Assembly (NCBI GenBank): GCA_002717835.1 | Contig: PBBV01000008.1 | Coordinates: 1 to 51,136 of the forward strand | Length of the DNA stretch: 51,136 bases | DNA from: Methanobacteriota archaeon | Lineage (GTDB): Archaea; Thermoplasmatota; Poseidoniia; Poseidoniales; Thalassarchaeaceae | Direction: 5' to 3' | Shown: in pieces, positions 1,295-38,493 of the stretch | Layout: every line of letters begins with the position of its first letter | Numbering within the stretch: the first letter of the stretch is position 1 | Translations under genes and position numbers: made by a program | Notes under the pieces: generated by a model | Told to the model about the DNA's origin: nothing | What the model saw: only the letters and a program-made list of their open reading frames with translations | Databases searched by the model: none

Positions 1295-4200
1295 TCAGAT
1301 TTTGAATCCGACCTGCTCTTCAGAGCCCTCATCAGTACCTGCAATCCGCACTTGGCCTTCAGAGTCAACAAAAGTGCCTGCCTTGGTAGAAGCACCGTAC
1401 ATCGAAATTCCTTCCGACCTGATTCGGCTCAACATGCTCTCTCCGAGTGACTTGGACAGATGACCTATGATGTTCTGAAGTGCTACTATCGCCCTATCTC
1501 TTTGGTCTGCGCCAATTTCGTGGTCCGAATATCTAGCCTCTTCGAATATGCTAAAGAATTCTGAAAGATCCTCTGGAGGTGCTATGCCTCCCAGCATCTG
1601 ATTGACCGCATGTTCGAATTCCCTGGTTGTCTCGTATACCTTCTTCATGGCACCTCTCTGCCTGAAGAACTTGACAAGATCCTTGTAACAATTGAAGATG
1701 GTCTCAATGTATGAGTTTCTTCCTTGTAGAGCCCACAAAGAATCTGTGAGGATCCCTCTCAGGATTTCAATTCGGCGTCGTTCAATGTAGTTCCTATACA
1801 TATATGCTGCGAGGAGTAGCGTGGATACCGCAATTAGAGAGAGGATTGTTAATACTCTGGCTGTGAAAAAGCTCTGTTGGTCCACCTCTGCGGGATCGGC
1901 AAGTCTGATTCTAGGAGTGTTGTCTAAGTCCGAGCTTACGAATCGGTAATCACCTTGGAACTCAACTTCAATCCTCCACTCACCATTCACTGCACGAGGT
2001 CCGCCAAGGTTGGCTGACTGTTCGCCAGGGAGGTCTTCGCCTGTATATTCAAAGCTGAAGTTAGCAACTCCTTGCTCGGATGTTGTTGTGAAGTAGACCT
2101 TGAAAAGTTCCCAACCTGATCCGTTGTTGTAAAATTGGTTGAAAACAACTGTTTGCCCCTCGACGGCAAGGTCTATTCTATCTCTCAGGATTGCTACTGA
2201 GCCTTCTACTATTTCTCCAACCTGATATCCTTCTGGACGTGCCCATTGCTGGCTGAGTAGTATGTCCACACGGCTTTGAACTAGAATCTCCACGTCTACG
2301 AAAGAGCCGTTAATCACAGGGGCCGTCTCGATCTGACACCCTCCCGGAACTGATCGAGTTGGCTCATATGCGATTCTAACTGTCCTGAAGCCCTCGAGCT
2401 GATCACCACTTGGATCTACGCCGCGCTGACTTGGATTGTCTTCTTTGTCGCCGGAGAACCACTCTACTGAACCTGTACCGTCATTGGTACGGGCAGTGGC
2501 GAATGGTCTCGTATTTGTCTCGGGATCTAGATAGACGTTCAGGCATTTCCCTCCAACAGGGTTACCATTCACCTGAGTTAGTCTGGCATCGAAGTGGAAA
2601 GACTCTTTCAGATACAAAATGGGGAATGTGCTGCCATTGGCGAATGTGTACGTATCAACGTCATTTCTGAAAGGTCCTATCTCAATCATCTGAAGTGTTG
2701 AATTGGAGTACACTGGGAACAACATCGTCTTGGTCGCGTTGAGGTATCTGTAACGATCTGCATTCTCCCAAGAATTGTATCTGACTTGGACTTTCGCTTG
2801 GCCGGCTTGGACGCCCTCCAAAGAGCACATTATCTCAAAGAAGCCGTTTATGTCTGTAGTCCCTGGCAGACAAGTTCTGATTCCAAGTTGGCTGCCTAGC
2901 ATCTCATAATCTACTTTGACGTTCCTAAAGCTCAAGTTACGTCCTAGTTCGTCTACCAGTTGCCCTGTTACTATCATTGGTTTTTGTATCGATTCGCCTG
3001 TTAGAGGGTCAGCCTCTGAGGTGTAGACAACTTGCTCGTCGACGCTCAAAGAGGTCTCACCGAGAAGATAGAATCCTTCTTCTTGGAACTGGAGGACCCT
3101 GCGATAGTGGTCGTTGTACAGGTCTTGTGTACATTCATCCCACGCACCGGCAATTTCAAGCGCGTTGGGCCCCAATGGTCCGCAGCCCTCATGGGGTAAA
3201 TTCTCATTAAATCTGAGAATCACATTAACCGGCCCGAAACCATCGGGAAGGAAAGATTGAGCATCAGACGTGAGTATCTCAGGATCGAGGGTCATCTGAT
3301 GGGTTATCGCGCCTGCGCTTGGACAAAGATTGTCAACTATTTTTCTGTGGACGCGGTCTTCGAAGTCTAATCCTTCAAGTATGAGGGTCACAATGCCTCC
3401 GTTCTCGCCGCATCCATCTAGCGCCTGACCGGAATCCTTCTCAAATGCTGTACGATTATCGTCAGTCACCTGAGCGGTGAAATACCAATCTTGCCCACTC
3501 ATTAGGGGTCCTGAAACACTGGATTGCAGATCGATATACGTGCGAGAGACCACCCAGAGGTCTGTTTGGCCCTCTGATGATTGATGCAGCATATCTCCGG
3601 AATAGGTGTATGAGAGGGTGAATGCCCCCAGAGGATGGTCCTGACCGATCGTAAGGTTCACTCTGAATATTCCATTCTTGTCCGTGGAAGTGAGGCCGTT
3701 TGATCCGTCTGCGTCCCATGAATAAGTGACTGGCACCTCCCTAAGCGGCTGTAAGGAGTTGTCGACGAGTCTGACTTCGACTGTCCGATTGACGCCCCTG
3801 TATAATCTAGCATCTTCTACAGGCAAGAACTGGCTCGTTCCGATGACTGTGACATTCACATAAGCTCCGGTTGATGACAGTATTGAAGATTGATTTCCAG
3901 TGAAATAGAAGTTGGAGTTGGTGAAATCCGCTTTCACGCCATAGGTACCAGCAGCATATTGAGAATACCACGACCAATTATAGTCGAACTGCGCCTTGCC
4001 ATCTACCATGTTGGGAACTCTTGCAAAGCCGGTTTCTTGGGCTCCTGCGAAGACGAGGTTCTGATCTAGGTCGACCTGAAGAGCAATGGCATCCTGAGCC
4101 CATGGTACAAATGTTCTATTGTACACCTCTCCTACGACTCTTAGAGACTCTCCTGTGAAGAGTTCAGGTATGATTTCACATCTGATGGGGCTGAATGGAT

Positions 4201-7200
4201 CCGTTGGGTCAGCTGGTCCGCAAGGTGGAGCATTGAAGTCTCCTCCATTCTGCATTGCCACAGACCAGTGCGTGAGATTTGCCGAAAGGAATGGCCTGAG
4301 TTTGGCAGCTTCTCCATCAAGCCCGGAGCTAGTGCCATCCCAGAGTAATGGATACGGCTTACCCAAACTGGCTTCTTCGTATGCTATTCCTGCGCTGTTC
4401 AAGGAGGGTGCGTGGAACAACGCCCTCCACGCCCCGAATGAAGATCCTGTGAATTGAGTTGCATCCCAAAAGTAAACCGGTCTTATCGAAGTAGTATACA
4501 TGACGGCTTCAATGTACATTCTGTGCATTGAGCGAATGTAGAACGTTTCTGACTCGCTTCCATTCAGATATGGGAATGGCCATTCAGCACCTAGATCTGG
4601 GCGTGAAAAGCCTATGAATTCGTAATCACCGACTGGAAGAGAGGTGTTGGTGTATGTGTATCTATCAACTACCTCATGTCCCTTGGCGTTGTCATCCCAT
4701 ACAATTTCCTCATAGCCGCCACTTGGTTGGCCTACGCCGTTGTCCATTGTCGAATTCCAACGAACCTGCTTCCAGAAGCCCTGTGCGCCCTGATCCTGGA
4801 CGAATGTAAGGGATACCCACCCATTCGAATCAGCTCTGTATCCGAATCCATACCCATCGAACAAAGTGGGCACTGATCTGTTTCCGAATGGGCCTCCAGC
4901 TACAGTAAATGAAACTGGGGCGTGTTTGATTCGATTGTCGAAGATTCCTCTTTCCCAGTCTGCGTGATAGTGAACCTTGTAATCAACAAATAATGGCTGT
5001 TCATCGCTTCTGAAATAAGTCCACGAGACGTAATCAACAGTAGTATTTGCCCTTACCTCGAGCGGTGCGGGTGTGGAAGATGATCCGTCATGAGCAAACA
5101 TCTCGATAACATCCGCTCGAAGATTATATCGCGTAGAGGGGCCTACCTCAATGTCCTCGGGATAGAGATACTGGCCAACCGTGAAATTTCCTCCCTCATC
5201 TGTGAGTACTTCAACAGTCCTGAGCGTCTCTGTGGAGTTTCTCTGGTATTCGATGACTATTCTCACCGGCAGATCCGAACCGGGGACGAAAGCTCCTGTC
5301 TCGAGATCTAGCACATCCACCCTACCGGTGAATACTGCTGGAAACTGTGCGTCGAGCCAAACAGTCTGAATTGGATTTAACGTAATGCGGGTCGGTGGTT
5401 TGTCATCAGCGTCTAGGACGCAATCATTGTCGTTATCCCAGTCGCTGGCAGGGTACTCGGCCCCGCTGGAGTCCGTGCATGTAGCACCCTCTTCTAGATG
5501 GTCCCAATCAACATCGGGAATACCGTCTGTATCATCATCTTCATCGAGGCTGTCGGGCCCTGTTGATGCGTTCGCTGGATTGTGCAAACCTGCACCAGTG
5601 CCGTAGTCATCATGATCCCATGGATTGGTCGAATTCGTTCCGTATCTACTTGGCCAAAGCATAACTTCGTCTTCATCATTCATTCCATCTTCATCGTCAT
5701 CGAGATCTATGTCATCACGGAGGCCATCGTTATCGTGGTCCCATGGGGCTACAGGATGGGAAGATCCTCCTCCTGCTTGCTCTATCGTGTTGGATATCCC
5801 ATCTCCATCCCAGTCAGTGTCTGCCCAATCAGGAATTCCGTCATTGTCGTGATCCCAGGGGCTTTGTTCTTCGCCCCTGAAGCATATCAACTCTTGATCC
5901 GCATCCAATACACCGTTGTTATCATCATCTGGATCTTCGCCGTCGGGTACTCCATCGTTATCGTTGTCCACGTCATAGTATTGAGGGAATAGGAGGCCTT
6001 GACCGAGCCTACCTCTGTCCCAAACGGACTGGTACCAACCATCTCCATCAGGATCTGTATCTGTACCATCATCATCGTGATCATCGCAATTATATCCTGT
6101 GAAGAAGTTCCCCGGCGGCTCTGTGTTAGAATCGTCATCGAGATCGTCATTTACATCGATCTCAAAGAAATCCCATATGCCATTGTTATCGTCATCGACA
6201 TCCCAGTGGTCGTAGACTCCATCGAAATCGTCATCTAAATCAGCAGTGTCATTCGCCATACAAGACGGATTCAAAGTTCCAGTTACAGGGGCACCACAGT
6301 CGTCGTCTGGGTCCACGTTGTTATCTAGGAGGTCTGCTACTTCGTCTGGAAACAGGTTTCCGTTGGGGTCTGCAACCCATTGGAAGAATCCGAAGTTGAT
6401 GCCTACGTAGGCCGTCCAAAGATCTCTGTTATTGATCATCTTATCGAACCCAACGGCAGCAGAGGGGCCTGCATCTTGATTCCCAAGGAAGTCGAAGTGA
6501 AAGCAGTTCTGTTCGCAGGTGAAGTCGTTTATTCCAGCGGAATTCTCACCACCATATGGGCCGTCAGTGTAGAGCGGATCTGGCCTTGATGAATAAGGCA
6601 GGGTAAATGGGACTCCGTTTACCGAGCTAGCGTCTGCCAGAGGGAATCCATATAGCCATGCGAGGGCGATTCCGCAGGCAGTTGGGCCCGCGGATAGCCC
6701 CAACAAGAATGCCATCGAAATATCGCATTCCCCGTCATCAAGAGACCCGCCATATGCAGGGTCGTTGACATCATAACGGCCGTCTGATCCCTCATCACGG
6801 TCCCACCAATTGGGCACGCCATCTGCATCCATGTCAACATCGACGCCGTTGACAAGTGAATCCCCGTCCATATCGATGTCGAAGTAGTTGTTGCCATTCC
6901 AAGGGCTCCATTTCATCATCACATGCCAATACATTTCCGGGACATTCCCATTAGATACAATCGTAGGCGGGCCTAATGTGAAGTCGTCTTGGTAACCGTT
7001 GTACGGGAGGACGAAGCCATGCTCTTCGAAAAATGGACTGAAGTGCCAGAACATATCCCAATGAAGAGTGCCTGTTCCGGTGTATAGGCCGCTGTCCGCG
7101 GATCCATCTATGGCGTCTCCGTCTTGTTGGGAGTACGAATTGTCGAACTGATCGGTGTTGTCGTTGTCAACAATCCCACAATTTCCATCATCGGGGTCAT

Positions 7201-9262
7201 ATAAATCGGAAATTCCATCGTTGTCGTCGTCCCAGTCCTCATCATTGGATAGCCCATCGCCATCGATATCAGTGTCAATATAATTCAAACCGTCGTCCCT
7301 GTATCTTGATCCATTTAACAGATGCAGGTCATTATCGTCATCCAAATCGCAATTCTCATCGATATCCAACCAATCTAAAACTCCGTCATTGTCGTCGTCT
7401 ACATCTTCCCAGTTAGAGAAGCCGTCGCCGTCCCAATCATTGTTCCCAGTGTGTGATTTCCTTTCTGTAAGACAGCGTGGGTCTGGATTTATCGGGTTTG
7501 GATTCTGAAGCGTTTCGCAATTCCAGGAATCCAGTGTTGAAGTGGGTACCATTGGATATGGATCATCTTGATTTGGGATTCCATCATTGTCTAAATCGTA
7601 CGGGATATCGGCCAGATCGACTCCGGGATTACCGAGAAGGTTGTCTGCTGGGTCAGCAGCTCCAAGATCTGTGTCCTTCCAATCCCAGACGAGGTCATAA
7701 TCTGCGTCTATGGCTCGATATGCGTCGTCATCAGCATCCCGATCATAATCAATTTCGCAATCTACGCCTGGAACTTGACCGAACCAGTCATTGAATCCGT
7801 CTAGGTACTGGGACAAATCGCTTAGAACGTTTAGACAGTTGTCTGGTATGCCATCATTATCATCGTCAATGTCCCACATATCCAAGAGTCCGTCATTGTC
7901 ATCATCTGTATCTGCAGAGTCTGGCGTTCCGTCATTGTCATTGTCTGGATCGATGAAATTAGGAAGTCCGTCGCCATCTAAGTCCCCGTCTACGATCTCA
8001 TTAAACGAGGGATTGCGAGGATGCCAAAGGTTCTGTTCCTTAAATGCGAAGTCAAGCTTGTCTTTTCCGTAGGTGTCAAAGTCTAGATTGAATGCATCGG
8101 GGAAAGGTTCGCCAGTGGCAGCGAGGACGGTAATAATTCCATCACCTACTCCCCCTAGAACGGTGTCCGAGTATCTCCAAGTCCCTTCGGAATCGAATGT
8201 ATGGCTGAATGATTGGCCTGTGGTCAATGTTCCGCTGTCGAAGGTTCCATCGGCTGAAACCGCGGAATGATTTTCTGTATCGTCATTTGTCCATGTGACC
8301 GTGTCCCCCACTTCGATCTCAAGGTCTGTATCTGAATATCCTGCAACTGTAATAGAAATCTGATGTGTCTTGCTGGAAGCCCATGGGATCGCATCATCCC
8401 AAAAAGTAGCTGTTCCGGTGATATTGGACGTCTCGGAAGGATCCCAGGGGTGAGTGTCCCAAAGATCGATAACTCCATCGTTGTCATCATCTGAATCCCA
8501 ATAGTCTTGCAGTCCGTCGCCATCGAAATCACATGGCCAAACGAATTGGTCGATGCGGGCATCGTTATCATCGTCCTCGTCATAGGAACCCTTACCGGAG
8601 CCATCGATATCTTCGTCAGTGATTCCATCATTGTCATGGTCCAGCGGGTTCTGATCGACTAGGTATCCAGACCCGAGTGCGAGACCTGTCCATGGATGCA
8701 AGATGCTTGGTTGTACGTACCGATCTGAGGTGACGTTCCACGGGTCTGTACCTTGTGAGTAGTCGATCGGTCCCTCGAGAATCCCGTCGTTGTCATCGTC
8801 GAAATCAAATTCATCTTGAACTCCATCGTTATCATGGTCGTAAGGATCTGTTCCGTAGCACCCGTCGAATCGTTCGATTAAATCGGATATGCCGTCGTTG
8901 TCATCGTCGAGATCGTCCAAATCGTTGATGCCATCGTTGTCGTGATCTTCGGTCTCTGTCTCTTCGACCATGAATCGATAACCACCCTCAAGGAACGAAG
9001 TATCTGTTATTTGCCCGTAGAGTATGCCGGGATCAGACCAAGACATGTCTTGGAAGGCGGGATGGTCTGGGAGTAGCATGTGTTCGAGTGCTGGAAATGA
9101 AGAAGTGTCAACATCTGATGATTGGATTTGCTGTTGAGTCGGTGTATCCCCTGTTCCATTATCGAATGGTCCTGACTGGTCTCCGACCGCTATCATCGGC
9201 ATCTGTACGCTAACCACCATCAAAACCACCAAAAGTAGGGATTTTGTGGTCCTGTTTCTCAT
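1295..9262 (-). CDS. Giant exported surface protein with thrombospondin-type-3-like Ca2+ repeats and a DUF4129-like cytoplasmic tail
   Basis: A 2655-residue protein. It opens with a signal peptide (MRNRTTKSLLLVVLMVV...). Residues about 30-1350 carry Asp-rich repeats of the DxDNDGxxD type (DNDG occurs at least fifteen times), as in thrombospondin type 3 and dockerin-like calcium sites. A plastocyanin-like domain lies near residues 300-380 but lacks copper ligands. The second half is beta-rich, with probable Ig-like or carboxypeptidase-regulatory-like domains (SVDEQVVYTSEADPLTGESI region). One membrane helix (VLTILSLIAVSTLLLAAYMY, near 2470-2490) precedes a helical tail of about 165 residues resembling DUF4129 (RGAMKKVYETTREFEHAV, FEEARYSDHEIG). 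The ATG at 9262 is preferred over 9280 because GGAGAT lies eight bases upstream. It is probably an anchored calcium-stabilised cell-surface protein; its ligand is unknown. The architecture is read directly; the role is inferred. Confidence 0.85.
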   Translation of the reverse strand: MRNRTTKSLLLVVLMVVSVQMPMIAVGDQSGPFDNGTGDTPTQQQIQSSDVDTSSFPALEHMLLPDHPAFQDMSWSDPGILYGQITDTSFLEGGYRFMVEETETEDHDNDGINDLDDLDDDNDGISDLIERFDGCYGTDPYDHDNDGVQDEFDFDDDNDGILEGPIDYSQGTDPWNVTSDRYVQPSILHPWTGLALGSGYLVDQNPLDHDNDGITDEDIDGSGKGSYDEDDDNDARIDQFVWPCDFDGDGLQDYWDSDDDNDGVIDLWDTHPWDPSETSNITGTATFWDDAIPWASSKTHQISITVAGYSDTDLEIEVGDTVTWTNDDTENHSAVSADGTFDSGTLTTGQSFSHTFDSEGTWRYSDTVLGGVGDGIITVLAATGEPFPDAFNLDFDTYGKDKLDFAFKEQNLWHPRNPSFNEIVDGDLDGDGLPNFIDPDNDNDGTPDSADTDDDNDGLLDMWDIDDDNDGIPDNCLNVLSDLSQYLDGFNDWFGQVPGVDCEIDYDRDADDDAYRAIDADYDLVWDWKDTDLGAADPADNLLGNPGVDLADIPYDLDNDGIPNQDDPYPMVPTSTLDSWNCETLQNPNPINPDPRCLTERKSHTGNNDWDGDGFSNWEDVDDDNDGVLDWLDIDENCDLDDDNDLHLLNGSRYRDDGLNYIDTDIDGDGLSNDEDWDDDNDGISDLYDPDDGNCGIVDNDNTDQFDNSYSQQDGDAIDGSADSGLYTGTGTLHWDMFWHFSPFFEEHGFVLPYNGYQDDFTLGPPTIVSNGNVPEMYWHVMMKWSPWNGNNYFDIDMDGDSLVNGVDVDMDADGVPNWWDRDEGSDGRYDVNDPAYGGSLDDGECDISMAFLLGLSAGPTACGIALAWLYGFPLADASSVNGVPFTLPYSSRPDPLYTDGPYGGENSAGINDFTCEQNCFHFDFLGNQDAGPSAAVGFDKMINNRDLWTAYVGINFGFFQWVADPNGNLFPDEVADLLDNNVDPDDDCGAPVTGTLNPSCMANDTADLDDDFDGVYDHWDVDDDNNGIWDFFEIDVNDDLDDDSNTEPPGNFFTGYNCDDHDDDGTDTDPDGDGWYQSVWDRGRLGQGLLFPQYYDVDNDNDGVPDGEDPDDDNNGVLDADQELICFRGEEQSPWDHDNDGIPDWADTDWDGDGISNTIEQAGGGSSHPVAPWDHDNDGLRDDIDLDDDEDGMNDEDEVMLWPSRYGTNSTNPWDHDDYGTGAGLHNPANASTGPDSLDEDDDTDGIPDVDWDHLEEGATCTDSSGAEYPASDWDNDNDCVLDADDKPPTRITLNPIQTVWLDAQFPAVFTGRVDVLDLETGAFVPGSDLPVRIVIEYQRNSTETLRTVEVLTDEGGNFTVGQYLYPEDIEVGPSTRYNLRADVIEMFAHDGSSSTPAPLEVRANTTVDYVSWTYFRSDEQPLFVDYKVHYHADWERGIFDNRIKHAPVSFTVAGGPFGNRSVPTLFDGYGFGYRADSNGWVSLTFVQDQGAQGFWKQVRWNSTMDNGVGQPSGGYEEIVWDDNAKGHEVVDRYTYTNTSLPVGDYEFIGFSRPDLGAEWPFPYLNGSESETFYIRSMHRMYIEAVMYTTSIRPVYFWDATQFTGSSFGAWRALFHAPSLNSAGIAYEEASLGKPYPLLWDGTSSGLDGEAAKLRPFLSANLTHWSVAMQNGGDFNAPPCGPADPTDPFSPIRCEIIPELFTGESLRVVGEVYNRTFVPWAQDAIALQVDLDQNLVFAGAQETGFARVPNMVDGKAQFDYNWSWYSQYAAGTYGVKADFTNSNFYFTGNQSSILSSTGAYVNVTVIGTSQFLPVEDARLYRGVNRTVEVRLVDNSLQPLREVPVTYSWDADGSNGLTSTDKNGIFRVNLTIGQDHPLGAFTLSYTYSGDMLHQSSEGQTDLWVVSRTYIDLQSSVSGPLMSGQDWYFTAQVTDDNRTAFEKDSGQALDGCGENGGIVTLILEGLDFEDRVHRKIVDNLCPSAGAITHQMTLDPEILTSDAQSFLPDGFGPVNVILRFNENLPHEGCGPLGPNALEIAGAWDECTQDLYNDHYRRVLQFQEEGFYLLGETSLSVDEQVVYTSEADPLTGESIQKPMIVTGQLVDELGRNLSFRNVKVDYEMLGSQLGIRTCLPGTTDINGFFEIMCSLEGVQAGQAKVQVRYNSWENADRYRYLNATKTMLFPVYSNSTLQMIEIGPFRNDVDTYTFANGSTFPILYLKESFHFDARLTQVNGNPVGGKCLNVYLDPETNTRPFATARTNDGTGSVEWFSGDKEDNPSQRGVDPSGDQLEGFRTVRIAYEPTRSVPGGCQIETAPVINGSFVDVEILVQSRVDILLSQQWARPEGYQVGEIVEGSVAILRDRIDLAVEGQTVVFNQFYNNGSGWELFKVYFTTTSEQGVANFSFEYTGEDLPGEQSANLGGPRAVNGEWRIEVEFQGDYRFVSSDLDNTPRIRLADPAEVDQQSFFTARVLTILSLIAVSTLLLAAYMYRNYIERRRIEILRGILTDSLWALQGRNSYIETIFNCYKDLVKFFRQRGAMKKVYETTREFEHAVNQMLGGIAPPEDLSEFFSIFEEARYSDHEIGADQRDRAIVALQNIIGHLSKSLGESMLSRIRSEGISMYGASTKAGTFVDSEGQVRIAGTDEGSEEQVGFKI

Positions 9263-9379
9263 TGTGAGATCTCCAATCATGCCAACACCGGGTATCGAGT
9301 TGACGTGGACACATATTTCAATCGTACCCGAATGGGGGCGAAGCGAGTATCATGGATAGCATCAGAGTATCATCTCTGA

Positions 9380-12395: not shown

Positions 12396-12471
12396 GTGGA
12401 CCGGTTGATAGAGGGTGGGAAGAACCCTTGGGAGGCGGAAGCGATACATCATGGTGGCTTCAGGAATAGCC

Positions 12472-13443
12472 ATGGCGGATGTCGACGGTTTGGAAATAAC
12501 AAGGATTCTGACGGACAGTGACCTTGATGGGGTCCTTTCAGGGGCGATTTTACTCAGAAGGTGGCCTGAAGCGGAGGTTGTGTTCGGTCATCCCGGCGCC
12601 TTGAAAAATGGCCTCTATGACGATTTTATCAACGGCGAAACTGCCATTTGTGATCTTCCCTATCATTCTAATTGTGGTTTATCCATAGACCATCATCTTT
12701 CCAACAAGCCAGATTCTGAAGGCGGGGTGCGTGTCTGGGAATCGGCACCCTCGGCAGCCAGAGTCGCAGCAAACCTCCTAGGCCACATTATCGACCTGGA
12801 GGATCTCTCAGAGGCTTTGAAATGGACCGACCGACTAGATGGAGGAAGGGTAACGAGAGAGGAATATCTCTCAGAAGAGCCGATGGTATGGATTGGACGA
12901 TCCATTGGTGTCGGAGAGGAAGTGGCTAGGACAGCCATGCATCTCTTTTCTTCCGGCCTCACGCCTTACGAGATATCGGAAACGAATGTCATAAAAGATG
13001 CTATTGCTCAAAGAAAAAGGGAGAATGAAATATTGAAAATAGAAATACAAGAACGGTTGGAAATTGTGGATCGTTTGGCAATTGTTCGTATGCATGGTTT
13101 AGGAATGCGGTCGAATGGGTATGCTGTGACAGCTTTTGCGGGGGATGCTTGCGATGCCTGTTTGATAACGCATGGAGACCTGGGGGTTTCCTTCGGGGAA
13201 GAAGATGGCTATCCCGTTTCTGCTTCATTCTATACGAATTCGTTTCTCCACAAAGATGGAGGGATATTCAACCTAACCACTCTTGCATGTCGATTTGATC
13301 CTGATGGTGGAGGGCACAAAGACGCATGCGGATGCCGCATAAAGGCGCTGGAAGGGTCATCTGTAGTCGATAGAGATGTTACAGTGGAAGACATTGAGTC
13401 TAATATCGAAAAATGGATTGATCTTTGGTCCAAACGAATTTGA
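12472..13443 (+). CDS. DHH/DHHA1 family phosphoesterase
   Basis: A 323-residue protein with the DHH superfamily metal ligands: a first motif TDSDLDGVLSG, the SIDHHLSN motif that names the family, and a C-terminal DHHA1 substrate-binding motif FDPDGGGHKDACG. Members include RecJ/GAN exonucleases, oligoribonucleases (NrnA) and pyrophosphatases; length and domain set fit a nanoRNase/RecJ-like enzyme acting on short oligonucleotides, but I cannot decide the substrate. The middle is a helical linker (ISETNVIKDAIAQRKREN). The ATG at 12472 has AGGA seven bases upstream and is preferred to 12415 or 12451. The PIN-domain gene begins about 45 bases downstream, suggesting a linked role in nucleic-acid turnover. 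Confidence 0.87.
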   Translation: MADVDGLEITRILTDSDLDGVLSGAILLRRWPEAEVVFGHPGALKNGLYDDFINGETAICDLPYHSNCGLSIDHHLSNKPDSEGGVRVWESAPSAARVAANLLGHIIDLEDLSEALKWTDRLDGGRVTREEYLSEEPMVWIGRSIGVGEEVARTAMHLFSSGLTPYEISETNVIKDAIAQRKRENEILKIEIQERLEIVDRLAIVRMHGLGMRSNGYAVTAFAGDACDACLITHGDLGVSFGEEDGYPVSASFYTNSFLHKDGGIFNLTTLACRFDPDGGGHKDACGCRIKALEGSSVVDRDVTVEDIESNIEKWIDLWSKRI

Positions 13444-13486: not shown

Positions 13487-16400
13487 GTGTCGGAGCACCA
13501 CACCATGGAGAATCAACTTCTCGAATGTCTCGAAGCAATGTCCGCTGCAGGGGATGATGAACGTACACGCTTGAGCCGTGTCGCCCGGAATATCGGATAT
13601 GAAGAGCTCACGAAACCTTGGAAGGGGCTAGCAAAAATTGCCGCCTCCAAAATGGCGCCGAAAGGAGTGGAAGATACAGGGGGATCGAATAGATCTGTTC
13701 GACGTAGTGGAAGAAGAACCGTGCGCGATAGAAGGGCGCGCAATCCGGTCCAGGATGTAATCGACAACATGGAAGAAGAGAATGCTGGCTATCGTCTGTG
13801 TCGGATTCTCCTAATTGCAAATAACGACTCAGACGTCTCTAAATCCGAAGCTGAGTCAATCAGAAATGAGTGTGAGAAGGGTCTTCACCCCGTGTGGGAG
13901 CGGCTCGCCCGTGAAGCGCCCATATTTGCCGAATTGAGTAGGTTTCCCGTCAAACAGCAGGAACGAAATACAGGTGATATCAATTTCTGGTCCGAATCAG
14001 CGAGATTTGATCCCCTTAATCATATGGAAGTTGGTTCTTGGTTGAATATTGAGCCTCCATTCTCCCTGTCGAGCGGCCAAAGAAGAGCGTTGAATCTACT
14101 AAGAAAGGAATACTCATCGAAGGTCGTCGTAAAGAGGGTCAAAGGGTACCTCAGCAATATTGAGGGAGGGAACCAATTGGAAGATTTTCTGTACAGCATA
14201 ATCGGATCTTCGATAGGTGAAAATGTCGTAGAACGGCTTGAAAACGCTGTTAAAAATGATGGGATCAAAGAAGTCGCAGAGATGCACCTTGTTCTCAACA
14301 AAATGAGGTATGGAAATGGATCGAACGTAGCTTCGAACTGGATAGGAAAAGAAGATGCTGATCCCCTTGTTTCTTCCATAGTTCTCGAGGCTTGGAAACA
14401 CATTGACTTGGATGAGACTGATTTGGATATCAAGAGTCTTCTATCTGGAGGTAGCCTGCTAGATGTCCACGGAGAGCTATGGCCAAATGACCTTTCATGC
14501 AAAATTGTGAGTCTGCTGATTGAAGCTGAAAGATACGAGGAGGCTGCCAAAATATTGATTCAGAAGACAATCGATGCCAAGGAATGCCTCATTCTTGGAG
14601 CAAGTATTCCTCTGGAAGACTCTGCCCTTCAATCTGTCATACAAGATTCGGTCAAACGTTTGAGTTCCGAGGTGTTGAAGGAAATACTTGAGGATAAATC
14701 ACTGACTGTTGGCGTGAAAATATTAGTTGCACGGGCGCTCATAGAGAGAGAAGACGTTTCTTACGGTGATAGCAAACTTGCAGACGTCCTAACATTGGGA
14801 TGTGAAATTGAAATGCTTGCTAAGATACTCGTAGGTAGTGGAGAACTAGGGTCTCCCTTGAGGGGTTTGCTGGTTTGGCATCTACTTCCTGCTCATCTTG
14901 GTGTGAACCATTCTGACGAAATCCTGTCGCTTCGCAGAACATCTCTAACATCCCTAAAAATAATTGAAGATGAATGCATAAGCGATGTGTCCATTGCATT
15001 GCTGTCTGTGATGAATGGGTTCTCAAAAGATTTAGCTGCCCTTCATGAGTTGCTCGGAAGCAAAGGTGTGATAGAGTTGAATCAAACCAGGAGAGCTCTG
15101 CTTTCGGAAGGGTCTGGAATCGTCAAAGAAAGCGTTCTCGAGCAACTTTCTAGATCTTCGGAGGCGGCTAATATGAATGAGATCGAAAGAGGTCTGTTCA
15201 GATCGTTGATAATGTCCTTGAGGCTGAATCGTGCTCGTGTTGACCTGCACATGCAGACTGATGAAAAACGCGAGTCGGCGATATCTTCTCTTTCTTCAAT
15301 TATGCAAACAAGACCTCCTTCCATGGAGATTCTAATATCGATATCAGAAATTGTTGAAGAACACAGCCTTCCAATTCAAGAATTGGATGATTGGTATCGA
15401 AAATACGCTCCAGACACAATTTCTGCTCAAATAGCTAGGGCTGGGATTTGGTTAGGCAAAGGAGACCATCGGAACGCGGGTAGGGCTTTCAGGGAAGCTG
15501 CAAATCGCTCCAGTGGTTTCGAAGCTCGAACTGCATTGAATCGTAAGGCATTGATTCAGCTCGCGCACGCCAAGGCTTGGAAAGATGCTGTCAACCTGAT
15601 TGAAAGAAACGAAGAGTTACTAGCTGCCATAACAAAAAAGTTCCAACTGTTTCTCAGGGTGTGCAATGAATATGAAAATGGAAAGAAAGATTCGGCAACC
15701 GGTCTCATAGTGAATTACATCAAAAATTCTACACGTGACATGTCTGATGAAATTTCCAATTTAGAGGGGTACTCCTCTGAGTTGGGGCTTCCTAGCGAGC
15801 CGTTTGAAGGTAGATTGAAAGCGGCAGTGAAGCGTCTAGAACGTTCTGAGCGAAGGAGGGGGATTGGTCGGGAAGATGATTGGAAAGAGGCTCTTAATGA
15901 TGCAAAGACAGTAATCGATGTCGACGATATTGCAACTCAGCAGGCGGAATTGAAGCCTCTTGCGGGGCTAAGAGTATTCCAATCCGCGATTAGATCCGGA
16001 TTCTTCGATGATAAAGATGTCAAGAGACTTCGCGGAGTGTTGAGGATTAAATTTACAGAGTTAGAGAGGTCAATACCGATAAGAGATCGAAAGATATTCG
16101 AGATATCCGGACTGAAACCATTGGTTATAGTAGACACAAATATACTCATACAGGCATTCAAAGACGAGCTTCTCAGTAGAGTTTCAACCGATGGATTTGG
16201 ACAGCTTGTTTGGTCGATGGAACGGGCCTTCCAATGGGAATTGCGGCGAAGGGGAAATAGTGGTAACATAATGCTACACGTCCCATCCGCCGTAAAGGGA
16301 GAATTCGCCAACAGGACCCGGGACGTGAAGTCTGCTAGGAGTTTGTTCGACGGGGAATATCAAGATCAGGTCTTGTGGTCCAAAATAGAAGAAGGTGAGT

Positions 16401-16810
16401 TACAGGATATTCGGAGGAACGTTATCGAACTATTCGACACGGTTTCTCTTTCGTTTAAGGGGAATTCGGATTTAGAAATCGGATTGAGTGATTTCCTAAT
16501 CAAGCACGAGGGGATATTTGAGCGAATTGATGAGAGAAAGCGCATTCTAAGAGATGACGAGCCTGCGAGATCTGTTATTGGAGGGCGGGCAATATACCCT
16601 GAAACAGGGGATCTGAAGATAATGCTCGATGCAGCCAGTCTCGCATCCTACACGAGCGCTACGTCATCTAACCTGAAGAAAATCGGTTCGATACATGTAG
16701 CGACTCGTGATTCAGACTTTAGGATGATCAGAAGGTCGTTAGAAGAGACTTACGGTTTCAGTGTGGTGAGTGATGCTGGAGAAGTCTCAAAATTAGTGCC
16801 GTCTCAATAG
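13487..16810 (+). CDS. Large helical-repeat protein with C-terminal PIN nuclease domain
   Basis: An 1107-residue protein whose bulk I do not recognise. Residues 1-65 form a helical head, then a basic linker (SNRSVRRSGRRTVRDRRARNP). Residues about 90-800 are alpha-helical, with TPR-like repeats near 640-760 (GDHRNAGRAFREAANRSS, AKAWKDAVNLIERNEELL). The last 230 residues hold a PIN domain: VDTNIL (Asp about 882), VKGEFANR, DLKIMLDAAS and ATRDSDF give the four acidic metal ligands of PIN ribonucleases. The start may be the GTG at 13487 or ATG at 13505 (GGAG nine bases upstream). It follows a DHH phosphoesterase, and its end overlaps the convergent methyltransferase by seven bases. A helical-scaffold RNase is the most economical reading. 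Confidence 0.85.
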   Translation: MSEHHTMENQLLECLEAMSAAGDDERTRLSRVARNIGYEELTKPWKGLAKIAASKMAPKGVEDTGGSNRSVRRSGRRTVRDRRARNPVQDVIDNMEEENAGYRLCRILLIANNDSDVSKSEAESIRNECEKGLHPVWERLAREAPIFAELSRFPVKQQERNTGDINFWSESARFDPLNHMEVGSWLNIEPPFSLSSGQRRALNLLRKEYSSKVVVKRVKGYLSNIEGGNQLEDFLYSIIGSSIGENVVERLENAVKNDGIKEVAEMHLVLNKMRYGNGSNVASNWIGKEDADPLVSSIVLEAWKHIDLDETDLDIKSLLSGGSLLDVHGELWPNDLSCKIVSLLIEAERYEEAAKILIQKTIDAKECLILGASIPLEDSALQSVIQDSVKRLSSEVLKEILEDKSLTVGVKILVARALIEREDVSYGDSKLADVLTLGCEIEMLAKILVGSGELGSPLRGLLVWHLLPAHLGVNHSDEILSLRRTSLTSLKIIEDECISDVSIALLSVMNGFSKDLAALHELLGSKGVIELNQTRRALLSEGSGIVKESVLEQLSRSSEAANMNEIERGLFRSLIMSLRLNRARVDLHMQTDEKRESAISSLSSIMQTRPPSMEILISISEIVEEHSLPIQELDDWYRKYAPDTISAQIARAGIWLGKGDHRNAGRAFREAANRSSGFEARTALNRKALIQLAHAKAWKDAVNLIERNEELLAAITKKFQLFLRVCNEYENGKKDSATGLIVNYIKNSTRDMSDEISNLEGYSSELGLPSEPFEGRLKAAVKRLERSERRRGIGREDDWKEALNDAKTVIDVDDIATQQAELKPLAGLRVFQSAIRSGFFDDKDVKRLRGVLRIKFTELERSIPIRDRKIFEISGLKPLVIVDTNILIQAFKDELLSRVSTDGFGQLVWSMERAFQWELRRRGNSGNIMLHVPSAVKGEFANRTRDVKSARSLFDGEYQDQVLWSKIEEGELQDIRRNVIELFDTVSLSFKGNSDLEIGLSDFLIKHEGIFERIDERKRILRDDEPARSVIGGRAIYPETGDLKIMLDAASLASYTSATSSNLKKIGSIHVATRDSDFRMIRRSLEETYGFSVVSDAGEVSKLVPSQ

Positions 16811-17551: not shown

Positions 17552-17588
17552 CCTAAGTGTTAAAGATGAAGTGCCCGACAGAAGGGCC

Positions 17589-18392
17589 ATGGAGCTTAAA
17601 CAACGTATTGACAAAAGAAAGACTGCGATCTTTGGCGGTTCTATGGCATTGGCTCTGTTAGCCTTGCCATCCGTGGCCGCTGAGACTCAGATACTTGCAG
17701 AAAATGACTGGGTGGGAATCAGCTTCTGGATAGCAACAGCAATGATGCTAGCCTCGACTGTATTCTTCCTAGTAGAAAGGCAAAATGTGCCTGACAAGTG
17801 GAAGACATCGATGACAGTGGCCGCATTGGTCACTGGTGTTGCATGGTACCACTACACATACATGCGCGAAGTCGCAGTTATGGATGGCGGTGGATCACCA
17901 CTTGTCTACAGATACATCGACTGGCTGATCACCGTGCCACTGCAGGTAGTAGAGTTCTACCTGATCATGGCAGCTATCGGAGCCGCGACATTTGCAATGT
18001 TCAGGAACCTAATGGTTGCATCACTCGTGATGCTAGTAGCAGGGTTCTTCGGAGAGTCTGGAGCTATGGACTCAGTAGTCGATCTAGGTGCAACAGTATG
18101 GTGGATCATTGGAATGGCAGGATGGGGTTACATCCTCTATGCCCTCTGGCAAGGAGACGTCAAGGAAGCATCTGCTTCTGGTAGCGACGGTGTCCAGTTC
18201 GCATTCACATCAATGCGATGGATCGTTACAGTCGGATGGGCAATTTACCCAATCGGCTACATGATGGGTAACGACATGATCAGCGGCTTCAATGCCGATG
18301 ACATGAACATCATCTACAACATCGCCGACTTGGTCAACAAGACCGCGTTCGGTATGATGGTCTGGTACGCAGCAACAATGGACGCCGAATAA
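17589..18392 (+). CDS. Proteorhodopsin, light-driven proton pump, predicted blue-absorbing
   Basis: A seven-helix retinal protein of 267 residues from the ATG at 17589. A cleavable signal peptide is likely (GGSMALALLALPSVAA). In helix C, YRYIDWLITVPLQVVEFY holds proton acceptor Asp111, Thr115 and donor Glu122, equivalent to D97, T101 and E108 of green proteorhodopsin, so it should pump protons outward. The residue matching spectral position 105 is Gln119, the blue-tuned state. The helix-B histidine (YHYTYMREV) is kept. Lys251 in LVNKTAFGMMVW would bind retinal as a Schiff base. It is a single-gene unit with its own TATA box and a terminator-like hairpin behind it; no retinal synthesis gene lies in the window. 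Track start 17571 (GTG) is less likely. Confidence 0.97.
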   Translation: MELKQRIDKRKTAIFGGSMALALLALPSVAAETQILAENDWVGISFWIATAMMLASTVFFLVERQNVPDKWKTSMTVAALVTGVAWYHYTYMREVAVMDGGGSPLVYRYIDWLITVPLQVVEFYLIMAAIGAATFAMFRNLMVASLVMLVAGFFGESGAMDSVVDLGATVWWIIGMAGWGYILYALWQGDVKEASASGSDGVQFAFTSMRWIVTVGWAIYPIGYMMGNDMISGFNADDMNIIYNIADLVNKTAFGMMVWYAATMDAE

Positions 18393-33288: not shown

Positions 33289-36200
33289 CTAAAATTCCAT
33301 ATCTTCATCAGTATAGACCATCATACTCCTCTTCTGGGCGTATTCTTTCATAGCCTCTATTCTTCGGCCCCAAATGACGACTACAGCAACTCCTCCGAGG
33401 GCAATTGTTGCCCCGATGATAATCACAGGAACGGAGTAAGTTGCGACGGCCTCCAGTAGCGGGTCGAGGAATCGATTATTGGAACCCATCTTATCGGTTA
33501 GAGACCAGTAGTTGTTTGATTCATCGGACTCTATGATATTATTGTCTGGGTCTACATACACTATTACGTCCTGAGAGCCCGCTTCTACAATGTAAAGCAG
33601 AGATATTTCCAAGAGTTCTTGATTACTGGACTGAGACACCGGCATAACTGCCTCGATTAACTGCCTGTAGACGATGTTGTCCTCATCGCAGCCATTCTTT
33701 CGAATGTCGGATGGGCTCTGATCGGCACAAAGAATTACGCTGACATCTGTAGCGTGTATGTTTCCTATATTTTGTAACTTGACTGTCACAGAAATCATTT
33801 CGCCAACCGCTGCTCTGGACTGCGGGGCATCTGCTGACAGTATCTTAAGATCAGGTGCTCTAAGCATCAATTGGAGGACCTGCTCATTGGAATCGCATGC
33901 CGGTGGGTAGTTATCTGGAAGGCCGTCCTTATTCTCGTCAAGGGTGCATGAATCGTCCCATTCAGGAGTCTCGTCGAAATCGCCGTCGGTGGCAGCTGAG
34001 CCATGTATTGATGTTGCTTTTATTCCAATTAATCTGTCACTTAACTGTGCTTCGTCATCTATCGATATTATTGCCACAAATTGAATTGTTGTGAATGCAT
34101 CCATCTCAGGGAATGTTACGGTACTCGTTGTCGAAGTGTAACATGCATCCGGTTCTGGTGCTATGCTCGGCTCGGGAGGAAGGCATGGCGCCTCTTTTGG
34201 AAATTCTGTGTCGAAATCCTCTACCAGTGCGTAAGTGATCATCCATTTAGAAAGCGTATTCATTCCTGGAGTTGAATCCCAACCTCCCCCTCCACCTAAT
34301 TTTGTGTGGTTGTGCAGCATCGGTGTATCTGGAACGTTTCCGGCATTTGTGAGGTTCATCAGGAAGCGGACTGTTCTACCGGGAGCACTGGTCTTTATTT
34401 TGGATTCCATGGCAGGATCTAGCGTAATCCTAAGATCGTGAAATTCTGAGATTTCCACTTGTAATTCGATGTTCTCTCTAACTTTGGTACCCTCATAGGG
34501 TTCTTCGCTAAGTACGTTCAACACAACGCTGTATGTCCCCGCAAGTGTCTTTTCTGGGACGTTGATGATCAAATCAAATTCTTTTGATTCGTCCCTCAAA
34601 AGTTCTCCAAAGTAAACTCTTGGTATCTCTATATCCCAAATGTATGCACCTTCTGGGCCGGTAACTGACTCGACCGTGATGTCGAAACGGTCAGGCCCGT
34701 TGCCGATGTTCGTAATTTCGGTGGACAAAGGATATGCTTGCCCTGGGTAGAGTTCTAGGACATTAGAGTCGACTTCGGCTTCAAGATCGTAGACTTGGAT
34801 CACGTTTGTTAGAAGCAACGCAGAGTCCCTCACCTCTGGTGTTCCTTCGAGGTGTGCTTTGACCACGACGGATTCCCCGAAGCCGGCTGTTGCATTGTAA
34901 GGGGAACACATATTCGCAGTGACCACGTATGGATTTCCGACAACTGCCCAATATCTTGGAGCGTTTTCTGGTATTCCATTACCACCAGGTGCGCTTGAAA
35001 AATCCAAGTCTACGGTCCAATGATCGTACCTCCACACACTCTGAGAGATGTCTGACGGTCTCTCCGATGGTCCACCTGGCGTGGTGAATATCAAAGACCC
35101 TGGAGAGTAATTTTTTGTAACCTCTATGTCGAATTCAGCACAGTCACCGGGTAGGACGTTCAAGTTCGTACCATCTGGTATCTTGAAAACTATGTTTCCA
35201 GATGTCTTCACTGAGACGTTTATCCATAGACCGAGTACATCATATGTGCCATGATCGATTTGGAATATCGGTTCTCCAGTGGACCATCCTTTGAGGTATA
35301 TCACATAAGTTCCAGGGGTCTGTGAAGTTGGTATGGTCACTCTGAGATTCTTAGTCACTGCCTGGCCTGGATCGAGTGATACTTCCGTGGGGAAATCTAC
35401 ACCCCAACCGAATTGTAGGCCCCACTCCATTTGGCCATCAAGTGTGGATGGGTCATGGAAAGCAAACGTATCGTAAACGTTGCCTGTATTTCTGACAATT
35501 ATGGAGAAGGTACCTGAACCACCCTGCTCGACATCGATATTTTTGTTGATTGTTGATAGATCGATTCCGTGGACTACATCCATCAAGATCACGAGTTGCC
35601 TTTCATCGTCGATGGCTGGATCTTTGTATGAAACTGCTCTTACCTTGATCTCTGCTAATTGGTCACCTTCGGCTTGATATATCGTAGGAGCCCTTACCCT
35701 CAAGTAAAGAGGAACTAGGTTTTCTCCGTTAGAGTTACCCTTGAGATGTATGGGTGTGGATTCAAAAATCGGTGTGTGATTGGATGCGTAATAGAGAGTA
35801 GCGCTCCAATTCATAGGGACGTCCTCTACAGTGAGGCGGAATGTATCTGCCACGAGATCGGATGGGCCAGGTGTTGGATTGTCGATAGTTAGATTGTAAA
35901 TAGTGCTCTCACCCGGTTCAATTACGTGATAATATGTCTCAGAGGGTGCGAGTGCGACGTCGACAAGCCCTGTTAGAACGTGGACGTAGCACAACGTCTG
36001 TTTAGGGCTGTTTGCTTCTCCGCATTTGGTTGAGTCGGACCAAGCAACATGGGCTCCGCTTCCAAGGTCATTAGAAAATGCCGGAGGGTTCCCAAGTTGT
36101 GGGTTTCTAGGAGAATTAGGGCCTAGTTTACCAGATTCCCATGTGGATACCTCGAATATCTCCCACTCATCTAATACAGCTATAGCGAGATTGTTCAGCG

Positions 36201-38424
36201 TGGGGAACCCGTTGGGATATTGGTCAGTTGTGCTGTTGAGACGAGTATACATGATCGTCTCACCTTGGGATTTGTTGCTGTTATCGAGCCATGCGATGTG
36301 TATGTTGTCGAAGTCATCAACCAATATGCCTGGAAGATATGATGTAGCCTCATATGGGCCTCTGTCTGGGTTGTCGTCGAACCAATCCAATCCTTCGACA
36401 TTGGAAATCGCAGAATCCATGATTTGCTTGATACCAAACGCCGGTAATCCGTCGCTAGCCCCATCCCACTGTCCTGCACCCTTGAGTTTGAGGCGTGTGT
36501 AGAAAATCTCGTAATTGACATCTAATTCGAAGCCATAGGACCTCCCATCCATCCAGGCTATGTGCGTGTTACCTTGGCTATCAAGAGCGACTTGTGGGTG
36601 AAGGCTGTATGCATCTTGGAGTGTGACGCGCGTGTCGTTTACTACTACGAGATGTCCGTATCCTTGGAGATCGAGGGAGGGGCCTACGTCTTCGATGTAA
36701 TATCTACTCCCGGAGGTCGCTGAACACTGTGGTACGCAACGGGTAGCAGACTGACCGGGGGCGAAACCGACCCATGGGTTATCAAGAAGGGCATATGGAT
36801 CGAGTACTGAAATGAATATTTCACGAGAAGCATTTGTTGCCAAATATATGAGTGCCTCCACCATGAACTGGAGTTCAGCTGCTGAAGACGATCCTGTTGG
36901 GAATGCATAAACTGCTCCCTCGGCATGTGTTGTTCTAGGCGCTCCTCCAGGGCAATATCTAGCCACTGAAGGTGTTCCGGGCTGATTATTGGGGCATTCA
37001 GCAAGGTCTCTCATCTGAGAACCTACGCTACCATCTGCACCGGCCCAGAGGGGCACTGGAGATATTCCTGCTAGGACACATGCGTCGTGTGCCTCGTTCA
37101 CGCTTTCGCGATCAGTTGCGTCCTCCGGGGATCCGTCATTAGCATTCTCATCAGATATTGGTATGATGATCTTGGTAGCATTTGGATTCCATCGGTGGTC
37201 CTCTGTTGTTGGGGGGTTAGCAAGGTTACCGAGTCTTCCTTGCGCGTCTCTCCATGAGAGGCAGGACCATGTGGATGAGGGGCCCCAAGCTTCCGACCCC
37301 TGGCCTCCTCCATCGTAACTTAGTGATATAGCGGCGTTGTTCAGTACCGCGCCGGTCAGCTTTCGAATGCCTCCAGATGTATCTGCAGGAGTCTGGCCAA
37401 GGTGATTCGCGCGAGGCCCCTGGCTTCCTGATCCTCCTGTCTGGTATGCTGTGGTACAGTAGCCTGAAGTTGCAGCAGCAACCTGTTGTACCCCTCCAAT
37501 TCCGTATAGTGTTTCGAATACTGTCATGTTAGCTTGCTCCAACATGGGTTTGAGGCCGATGAAATTGCCGCCAGATGAGAATTGTCCTCCATAGAAGACT
37601 GTGCACATGTCTGCCCATTCAGTTCCCATCGATCCAGAGGTGTCGATTGGCACGACCATCTCGACTTTGCCTCCCCTCGTGTCGTCCCAAACCACCTGAA
37701 CGAAATCGTCGTTATCCACAGCGATATCTGGATGGCCCTTCATACCGATTATTGGTGTCAGAAGTGTTGCGTCTATCTTTGATTGGGCTTCCCGGCTAGA
37801 GGCGTCTATCTCAATCATTTCATAATAAATCTGAGTCTGTGAGTAATAGAGGTCCAACGGGTCATTGTTATCCTGCCAAACGATGTGTGCATTGTTCAAA
37901 GAGTCTACAGCCACAGCAGGCCAATCCCTATCTTGGCTCCCGGTTCTTATTTCATAATCATCAATTATGGAGATGCCGTTCAATCCATCAATTGCATTCG
38001 AACCGTCTTGTTCGTGCATTGCAGGGTCCAACAACTGATACCAGATTGTCCATTGTCCAGATCTGTCAGCCCAGACGATATGCACCTTATCCTCAGAATC
38101 GACTGCGACGTCTGGGTGCCATGCTTGGTGTGCCCCGGGATTGGAAATTTGTGTCTCAGAGATCAATGTCTCGCCGGATGGGCCTAACATCTTGTAATAC
38201 AGGTGCTGGGTGTTCCTGCTCCAAACGAAGTGTACGTTTCCCTCTGAGTCGGAGTCGACAGCGACCATCGAATCTGAATTTGATCCGCTGTTTACGATGT
38301 TAATTGCATCTGTAAGAACAATTTCGCTGGCTTGTACCGGGACTGCAACACCCATTGCAGCGACTATACTTGAAAGCATAAGCAAGGTCATCATTATGCT
38401 GGAACGCTTCTTTCTATTCTGCAT
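33289..38424 (-). CDS. Giant surface protein: beta-propeller repeats with vWA insertion, CARDB-like domain and membrane anchor
   Basis: A 1711-residue exported protein. A signal peptide (IMMTLLMLSSIVAAMGVAVPVQA) precedes BNR/propeller-like repeats, VDSEGNVHFVWSRN, VDSEDKVHIVWADR and VDSLNNAHIVWQDN. A von Willebrand A domain starts near residue 258 (VPIDTSGSMGTEW, an intact DxSxS MIDAS motif) and runs about 300 residues; propeller repeats then resume (LDSQGNTHIAWMDG, VDDFDNIHIAWLDN). Beta-sandwich repeats of the NEW3/CARDB class follow (VEQGGSGTFSIIVRNTGNVYDTF; a CARDB domain ending IIESDESNNYWSL). A membrane helix (VPVIIIGATIALGGVAVVVIWG) and short tail end it. ATG 38424 is chosen over the GTG nine bases upstream. 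It is probably a surface adhesion or scaffold protein binding divalent metal. Confidence 0.85.
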   Translation of the reverse strand: MQNRKKRSSIMMTLLMLSSIVAAMGVAVPVQASEIVLTDAINIVNSGSNSDSMVAVDSDSEGNVHFVWSRNTQHLYYKMLGPSGETLISETQISNPGAHQAWHPDVAVDSEDKVHIVWADRSGQWTIWYQLLDPAMHEQDGSNAIDGLNGISIIDDYEIRTGSQDRDWPAVAVDSLNNAHIVWQDNNDPLDLYYSQTQIYYEMIEIDASSREAQSKIDATLLTPIIGMKGHPDIAVDNDDFVQVVWDDTRGGKVEMVVPIDTSGSMGTEWADMCTVFYGGQFSSGGNFIGLKPMLEQANMTVFETLYGIGGVQQVAAATSGYCTTAYQTGGSGSQGPRANHLGQTPADTSGGIRKLTGAVLNNAAISLSYDGGGQGSEAWGPSSTWSCLSWRDAQGRLGNLANPPTTEDHRWNPNATKIIIPISDENANDGSPEDATDRESVNEAHDACVLAGISPVPLWAGADGSVGSQMRDLAECPNNQPGTPSVARYCPGGAPRTTHAEGAVYAFPTGSSSAAELQFMVEALIYLATNASREIFISVLDPYALLDNPWVGFAPGQSATRCVPQCSATSGSRYYIEDVGPSLDLQGYGHLVVVNDTRVTLQDAYSLHPQVALDSQGNTHIAWMDGRSYGFELDVNYEIFYTRLKLKGAGQWDGASDGLPAFGIKQIMDSAISNVEGLDWFDDNPDRGPYEATSYLPGILVDDFDNIHIAWLDNSNKSQGETIMYTRLNSTTDQYPNGFPTLNNLAIAVLDEWEIFEVSTWESGKLGPNSPRNPQLGNPPAFSNDLGSGAHVAWSDSTKCGEANSPKQTLCYVHVLTGLVDVALAPSETYYHVIEPGESTIYNLTIDNPTPGPSDLVADTFRLTVEDVPMNWSATLYYASNHTPIFESTPIHLKGNSNGENLVPLYLRVRAPTIYQAEGDQLAEIKVRAVSYKDPAIDDERQLVILMDVVHGIDLSTINKNIDVEQGGSGTFSIIVRNTGNVYDTFAFHDPSTLDGQMEWGLQFGWGVDFPTEVSLDPGQAVTKNLRVTIPTSQTPGTYVIYLKGWSTGEPIFQIDHGTYDVLGLWINVSVKTSGNIVFKIPDGTNLNVLPGDCAEFDIEVTKNYSPGSLIFTTPGGPSERPSDISQSVWRYDHWTVDLDFSSAPGGNGIPENAPRYWAVVGNPYVVTANMCSPYNATAGFGESVVVKAHLEGTPEVRDSALLLTNVIQVYDLEAEVDSNVLELYPGQAYPLSTEITNIGNGPDRFDITVESVTGPEGAYIWDIEIPRVYFGELLRDESKEFDLIINVPEKTLAGTYSVVLNVLSEEPYEGTKVRENIELQVEISEFHDLRITLDPAMESKIKTSAPGRTVRFLMNLTNAGNVPDTPMLHNHTKLGGGGGWDSTPGMNTLSKWMITYALVEDFDTEFPKEAPCLPPEPSIAPEPDACYTSTTSTVTFPEMDAFTTIQFVAIISIDDEAQLSDRLIGIKATSIHGSAATDGDFDETPEWDDSCTLDENKDGLPDNYPPACDSNEQVLQLMLRAPDLKILSADAPQSRAAVGEMISVTVKLQNIGNIHATDVSVILCADQSPSDIRKNGCDEDNIVYRQLIEAVMPVSQSSNQELLEISLLYIVEAGSQDVIVYVDPDNNIIESDESNNYWSLTDKMGSNNRFLDPLLEAVATYSVPVIIIGATIALGGVAVVVIWGRRIEAMKEYAQKRSMMVYTDEDMEF

Positions 38425-38493
38425 GGATACCACTCAGTATGCTGAATGCAACTCTAACCATACTTAATGTCGACCCACTCGGGTCAGATTTGA

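Follow-up and report, generated by a model that had tools for sequence, protein, structure and literature searches.

A 51,136-nucleotide stretch of a Poseidoniales draft genome (hereafter the window) encodes a large protein whose C-terminal domain is supported, by structure prediction and residue conservation, as a PIN-type nuclease carried on an unrecognised helical scaffold. The protein is probably a scaffolded, metal-dependent endoribonuclease with a housekeeping role in RNA processing or decay. Poseidoniales (marine group II) rank with the most abundant archaea of surface ocean waters, and experimental studies of their RNA biology are scarce; keyword searches of titles and abstracts in the open-licence literature found no paper on the protein, a large conserved nuclease that is named in none of the family libraries searched. 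The host genome is a 1.2 Mb draft of 79% completeness, and a contig scan with the window sequence found its closest named relatives to be the "Euryarchaeota archaeon" MAGs UBA250, UBA52 and SAT1510.

Gene and domain layout

The open reading frame at 13487-16810(+) is intact, with 1107 codons from a GTG, and the opposite strand of the same interval holds no comparable frame. Most orthologues begin at the equivalent of methionine 7 (MENQLL or MEDYLL), so translation probably begins at the ATG at 13505, which would yield a protein of 1101 amino acids. In comparisons with two congeners, dN/dS was 0.094 and 0.080 for the whole gene, 0.078 and 0.059 for the PIN part, and slightly higher (0.098 and 0.086) for the helical part. 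Because these ratios are low and most genomes of the order carry the gene once and at full length, a chance frame is excluded and the initial annotation was right to treat it as a real gene.

Table 1. Features of the solenoid-PIN gene and its DHH neighbour in the window; residues are numbered from the GTG.
Feature	Coordinates	Strand	Basis
Standalone DHH-DHHA1 phosphoesterase, short C-terminus	12415..13443	+	Conserved motifs, PDB profile match
Solenoid-PIN gene, probable ATG (residue 7 of the GTG-started frame) to stop	13505..16810	+	Open reading frame and starts of relatives
Arg/Gly-rich disordered tract, residues 69-85 (RSVRRSGRRTVRDRRAR)	13691..13741	+	Model and alignment
All-alpha solenoid, residues 87-870 (~785 residues)	13745..16096	+	AlphaFold2, alignment
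PIN-type nuclease domain, residues 871-1107	16097..16807	+	AlphaFold2, alignment, sub-threshold Pfam matches

A full-length AlphaFold2 model built from 27 sequences (mean pLDDT 82) comprises a helical segment (residues 7-54), a disordered stretch (approximately 59-84, with pLDDT of about 31 at residues 61-80), an alpha solenoid (87-870) and an alpha/beta domain (871-1107). The Arg/Gly-rich tract at residues 69-85 is a feature new relative to the initial annotation. Its equivalents read RRGGRG in most relatives and occur in both families, its R73 is invariant, and it may resemble RGG-type RNA-binding segments.

The solenoid has conserved core motifs that include R126-C129-G132-H134-P135-W137, P457, W636, F719, L768-P769 and G775-R776. 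The initial annotation recognised no family in this region, in agreement with the finding that the whole protein has no match above threshold in Pfam, NCBIfam or PADLOC and nothing significant in a sequence search of the PDB. Foldseek matched the solenoid to generic solenoids alone (Ski3, Ctr9, IFT proteins, clathrin), at TM-scores no higher than about 0.2. The earlier description of TPR-like repeats is correct in a loose sense only: Pfam TPR matches are sporadic and sub-threshold, and self-alignment of a 42-sequence profile with hhalign detected no internal repeat, on which grounds a regular TPR array of tandem 34-residue repeats was rejected.

The C-terminal domain, modelled alone from 37 sequences, gave a pLDDT of 89.5 and a pTM of 0.89. 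All 42 full-length homologues, drawn from two families, have D883, T884, N885, E939, D1042, D1075 and D1077 unchanged, and the acidic set of the PIN superfamily (D, E, D, D) is found in order as D883 (codon at 16133), E939 (16301), D1042 (16610) and D1075/D1077 (16709 and 16715), complete as had been claimed from the sequence. The invariant residues are placed as would be expected of a PIN domain: they follow strand 1 (VDTN), sit in the helix behind strand 2 (xEF), precede the long helix that comes next (PExGD) and follow the subsequent strand (ATRDSDF). A helical insertion occupies residues ~947-1021.

The closest Pfam model is PIN_12 (PF16289), which aligns with one member along the entire profile (E=1e-4; segment residues 22-219 against 1-172) and scores at best 23.2 bits against a cut-off of 32. 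The PIN model (PF01850) matches 16 of the 37 members weakly, with a best score of 20.7 bits against a cut-off of 23.6. These matches are in the right register and all fall below the curated cut-offs; therefore the domain is called PIN-type and not assigned to a named Pfam family. When PIN_12 was searched in six frames over 48 whole genomes, two sub-threshold matches were obtained, in two genomes, both of them inside the solenoid-PIN gene. Alignment of the PIN-type profile with the Nob1 profile from the same genomes by hhalign was insignificant, which should not be taken as a negative, Nob1 itself being a divergent PIN. Foldseek found no significant match to the PIN-type model in the PDB, and the strands and helices of the model fit PIN topology; the fold assignment consequently rests on the motif, the predicted topology and profile matches that are weak but specific.

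The weak nuclease-like Foldseek matches of the model were EXO1, FEN1 and 2qip, the last of which we take to be NYN-like. Since the PIN-like superfamily includes FEN1 and EXO1, the presence of both among these matches could indicate a PIN-like or FEN-like nuclease that recognises DNA structures in repair or replication, with the solenoid as its platform. This is very unlikely, given that the FEN1 and EXO1 matches are insignificant, that the Pfam likeness is to PIN and PIN_12 rather than to the XPG/FEN families, and that the Arg/Gly tract would suit RNA better.

Distribution and gene neighbourhood

As judged against the Thermoplasmatota genomes sampled, the solenoid-PIN protein is restricted to Poseidoniales. 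The window protein as query found matches in 106 of 148 genomes of its family and a profile search found them in 239 of 293 Poseidoniales genomes, while all 117 matches in a sample of 390 genomes from the phylum fell within Poseidoniales; the seven genomes listed for the third family of the class gave no match. Most genomes surveyed are incomplete drafts in which single absences carry little weight, and the 14 misses outside one genus (g11) are in drafts of 52-87% completeness and are not evidence of loss. Within g11 the gene is absent from 28 of 28 genomes and the DHH gene is kept in 26 of them. The g11 rows fall inside the family in the DHH tree, which marks the PIN gene as secondarily lost; one of them stands beside another genus, g7, so g11 is not recovered as a single clade there. 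At five g11 loci (L036, L037, L038, L039 and L069) the PIN gene has been lost and the neighbouring genes kept. The loss provides a natural comparison for finding partner genes that were lost together with the nuclease.

A tree of the PIN proteins sets off the sister family, and likewise each genus, by a well-supported branch, the pattern that vertical inheritance would produce; the gene has descended vertically and is under strong purifying selection. This history bears on whether the protein might be a toxin or defence effector, its solenoid sensing a trigger and its PIN domain destroying cellular RNA. Large helical sensors with C-terminal nucleases do exist in defence systems and lend the idea its plausibility, but PADLOC gave no defence-family match, phage and viral collections contained no relative, the gene is vertical and single-copy at a fixed locus in most genomes, and no neighbour resembles an antitoxin. 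Such an effector is highly improbable.

The initial annotation placed a DHH phosphoesterase next to the PIN frame, and the neighbouring protein does carry the conserved motifs of the DHH-DHHA1 family (DxDxDG, DHH and a C-terminal GGGH). D34, D36, D38, D80, D92-H93-H94 and G298-G299-H301 are invariant in 21 sequences and G300 is present in 90% or more of them. The protein is found across Poseidoniales, with only weak partial matches elsewhere in the phylum. Its closest solved relative is PggH (PDB 7d62), matched by its profile over nearly the full length (E=4.5e-20). PggH is a pGpG-specific phosphodiesterase of Vibrio cholerae, and because the related enzyme NrN cleaves SAM-AMP instead (PMC10600005), the substrate of the DHH protein is not readable from its family alone. 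Short C-termini in clades of NrnB have been linked to a preference for short RNA (PMC12709177). The likeness to PggH fits a role in short-RNA turnover but does not tie the DHH protein to the PIN enzyme.

Fifty stretches, the window's and 49 from relatives, were compared. The usual order is PduO, NUDIX (minus strand), DHH, a membrane protein (minus strand) and PIN, with variable genes downstream. DHH lies upstream of PIN on the same strand in all 39 loci that have both genes. The two adjoin in six of these loci, and in 23 nothing but the membrane-protein gene lies between them; in the remainder other genes intervene, mostly in addition to the membrane-protein gene. This opposite-strand gene (L063:8620-9102, L049:9742-10317 and equivalents) lies directly upstream of PIN, in divergent orientation, in 35 of 43 loci; its product is a small, conserved membrane protein that contains His and has weak likeness to DUF4079/cytochrome b561. 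In the window's genus its best relative, of 27-31% identity, is on another contig, so the direct adjacency of DHH and PIN in that genus is derived. In g7, the distance between DHH and PIN is 9-12 kb in three genomes, and otherwise they are on different contigs.

The proposal that the two genes are an RNA-processing or decay pair thus holds for their order and strand, which are conserved throughout, but not for their coupling, since an opposite-strand gene usually lies between them and DHH is kept where PIN has been lost. Gene order as evidence of an operon was likewise rejected on comparison of the 50 stretches. The most fitting reading of their co-location is synteny conserved in a lineage that rearranges slowly, not an ancestral operon. 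A dedicated two-enzyme module of endonuclease and nanoRNase, which would be compatible with the endoribonuclease function favoured here, is for its part quite doubtful. That order and strand are constant in all 39 loci would accord with it, as would the order-wide occurrence of both proteins, PIN being absent and DHH represented by weak partial matches elsewhere in the phylum. Against this stand the intervening gene, the separation in g7 and the retention of DHH in most genomes of the PIN-less genus, and conservation is at least as high for other neighbours, among them the NUDIX gene upstream of DHH. As a caution, functional pairs should not be read from adjacency in one genome.

Several other genes are of note. 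In L057, L058, L059, L103 and L106 the NUDIX gene upstream of DHH falls in a separate cluster of mostly longer members, which may be an effect of clustering extended frames. Two genes downstream of PIN, at 17571-18392(+), is a bacteriorhodopsin-like gene (PF01036, E=3e-49) that, in the loci compared, is seen at this position in the window's genus alone. A 2661-amino-acid protein encoded at 1295-9280(-) is probably a giant surface protein; it has a hydrophobic segment close to its C-terminus and numerous acidic repeats of the DxDxDG type, which resemble the calcium-binding type 3 repeats of thrombospondin. The window also contains a frame of 1714 amino acids at 33289-38433(-).

Proposed function and related systems

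RNase P RNA (RF00373) scores above the cut-off in 69 of 79 genomes of the order, Nob1-type PIN_6 is present in 45 of 48 genomes and RNase PH-type exosome proteins in 48 of 48. Replacement of RNase P by a protein-only enzyme of the PRORP/HARP kind was rejected on account of the RNase P RNA, and replacement of Nob1 or the exosome because both are present, also in the three genomes searched from the PIN-less genus. Since these components are present separately, the PIN enzyme would add to the standard set; its single copy, vertical inheritance and purifying selection are as for a housekeeping role, and it is dispensable in g11, the whole genus having lost it. Most likely, then, the protein is an additional housekeeping endoribonuclease whose substrate is chosen by the solenoid and the Arg/Gly tract. 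The flexible tract near the N-terminus might hold RNA or an RNP loosely, and the solenoid might dock a specific protein or RNP partner and so select the site. In the PIN domain, D883, E939, D1042 and D1075/D1077 are predicted to bind Mg2+ or Mn2+ for an endonucleolytic cut of the RNA. The products could pass to general 3'-5' exonucleases such as the exosome, and enzymes such as the DHH-DHHA1 neighbour could remove dinucleotides.

In eukaryotic nucleases of the SMG6 type, helical repeats precede a PIN endonuclease at the C-terminus. The PIN chemistry proposed for the present protein could instead serve rRNA or tRNA maturation or ribosome quality control, the solenoid being dedicated to one defined RNP such as a pre-ribosomal particle and the enzyme having no general part in decay. 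Order-wide single copy under strong constraint, the Arg/Gly-rich tract and a combination of solenoid and PIN that recalls SMG6-type layouts would all accord with such a nuclease. It is nevertheless unlikely, because Nob1 and RNase P RNA are already there and because g11 has lost the gene without losing Nob1 or the exosome (three g11 genomes searched), which would be unusual for an essential maturation step. The preferred housekeeping endoribonuclease may also be elaborated into a lineage-specific hub of RNA decay, in which the solenoid, tethered by the Arg/Gly tract, would organise a degradosome-like assembly centred on the protein's own PIN endonuclease, a counterpart of RNase E or SMG6 that arose independently, and one genus would have rewired its RNA turnover so as to dispense with the enzyme; this is conceivable but tentative. 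The solenoid-PIN enzyme and its natural loss from one genus offer a tractable entry into RNA processing and decay in Poseidoniales.

Among known systems, the TPR/HAT scaffolds (Ski3, Ctr9, IFT proteins and clathrin) share a generic alpha-solenoid likeness with the protein, but the low TM-scores and the lack of a detectable repeat unit mean that the likeness is not specific. SMG6-type nucleases share its general layout, but the protein is archaeal and has no significant sequence or fold match to them, and its solenoid is presumably much longer than theirs. PggH and NrnB-like enzymes resemble the DHH neighbour in the near full-length profile match and the short C-terminus, whereas the neighbour is archaeal and has invariant C246-D247-A248-C249 and C305/C307. 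With PIN_12 (PF16289) and PIN (PF01850) the C-terminal domain has in common the acidic pattern and its order; it differs from them in its sub-cut-off scores, in a helical insertion of ~75 residues and in its fusion to a solenoid of ~785 residues.
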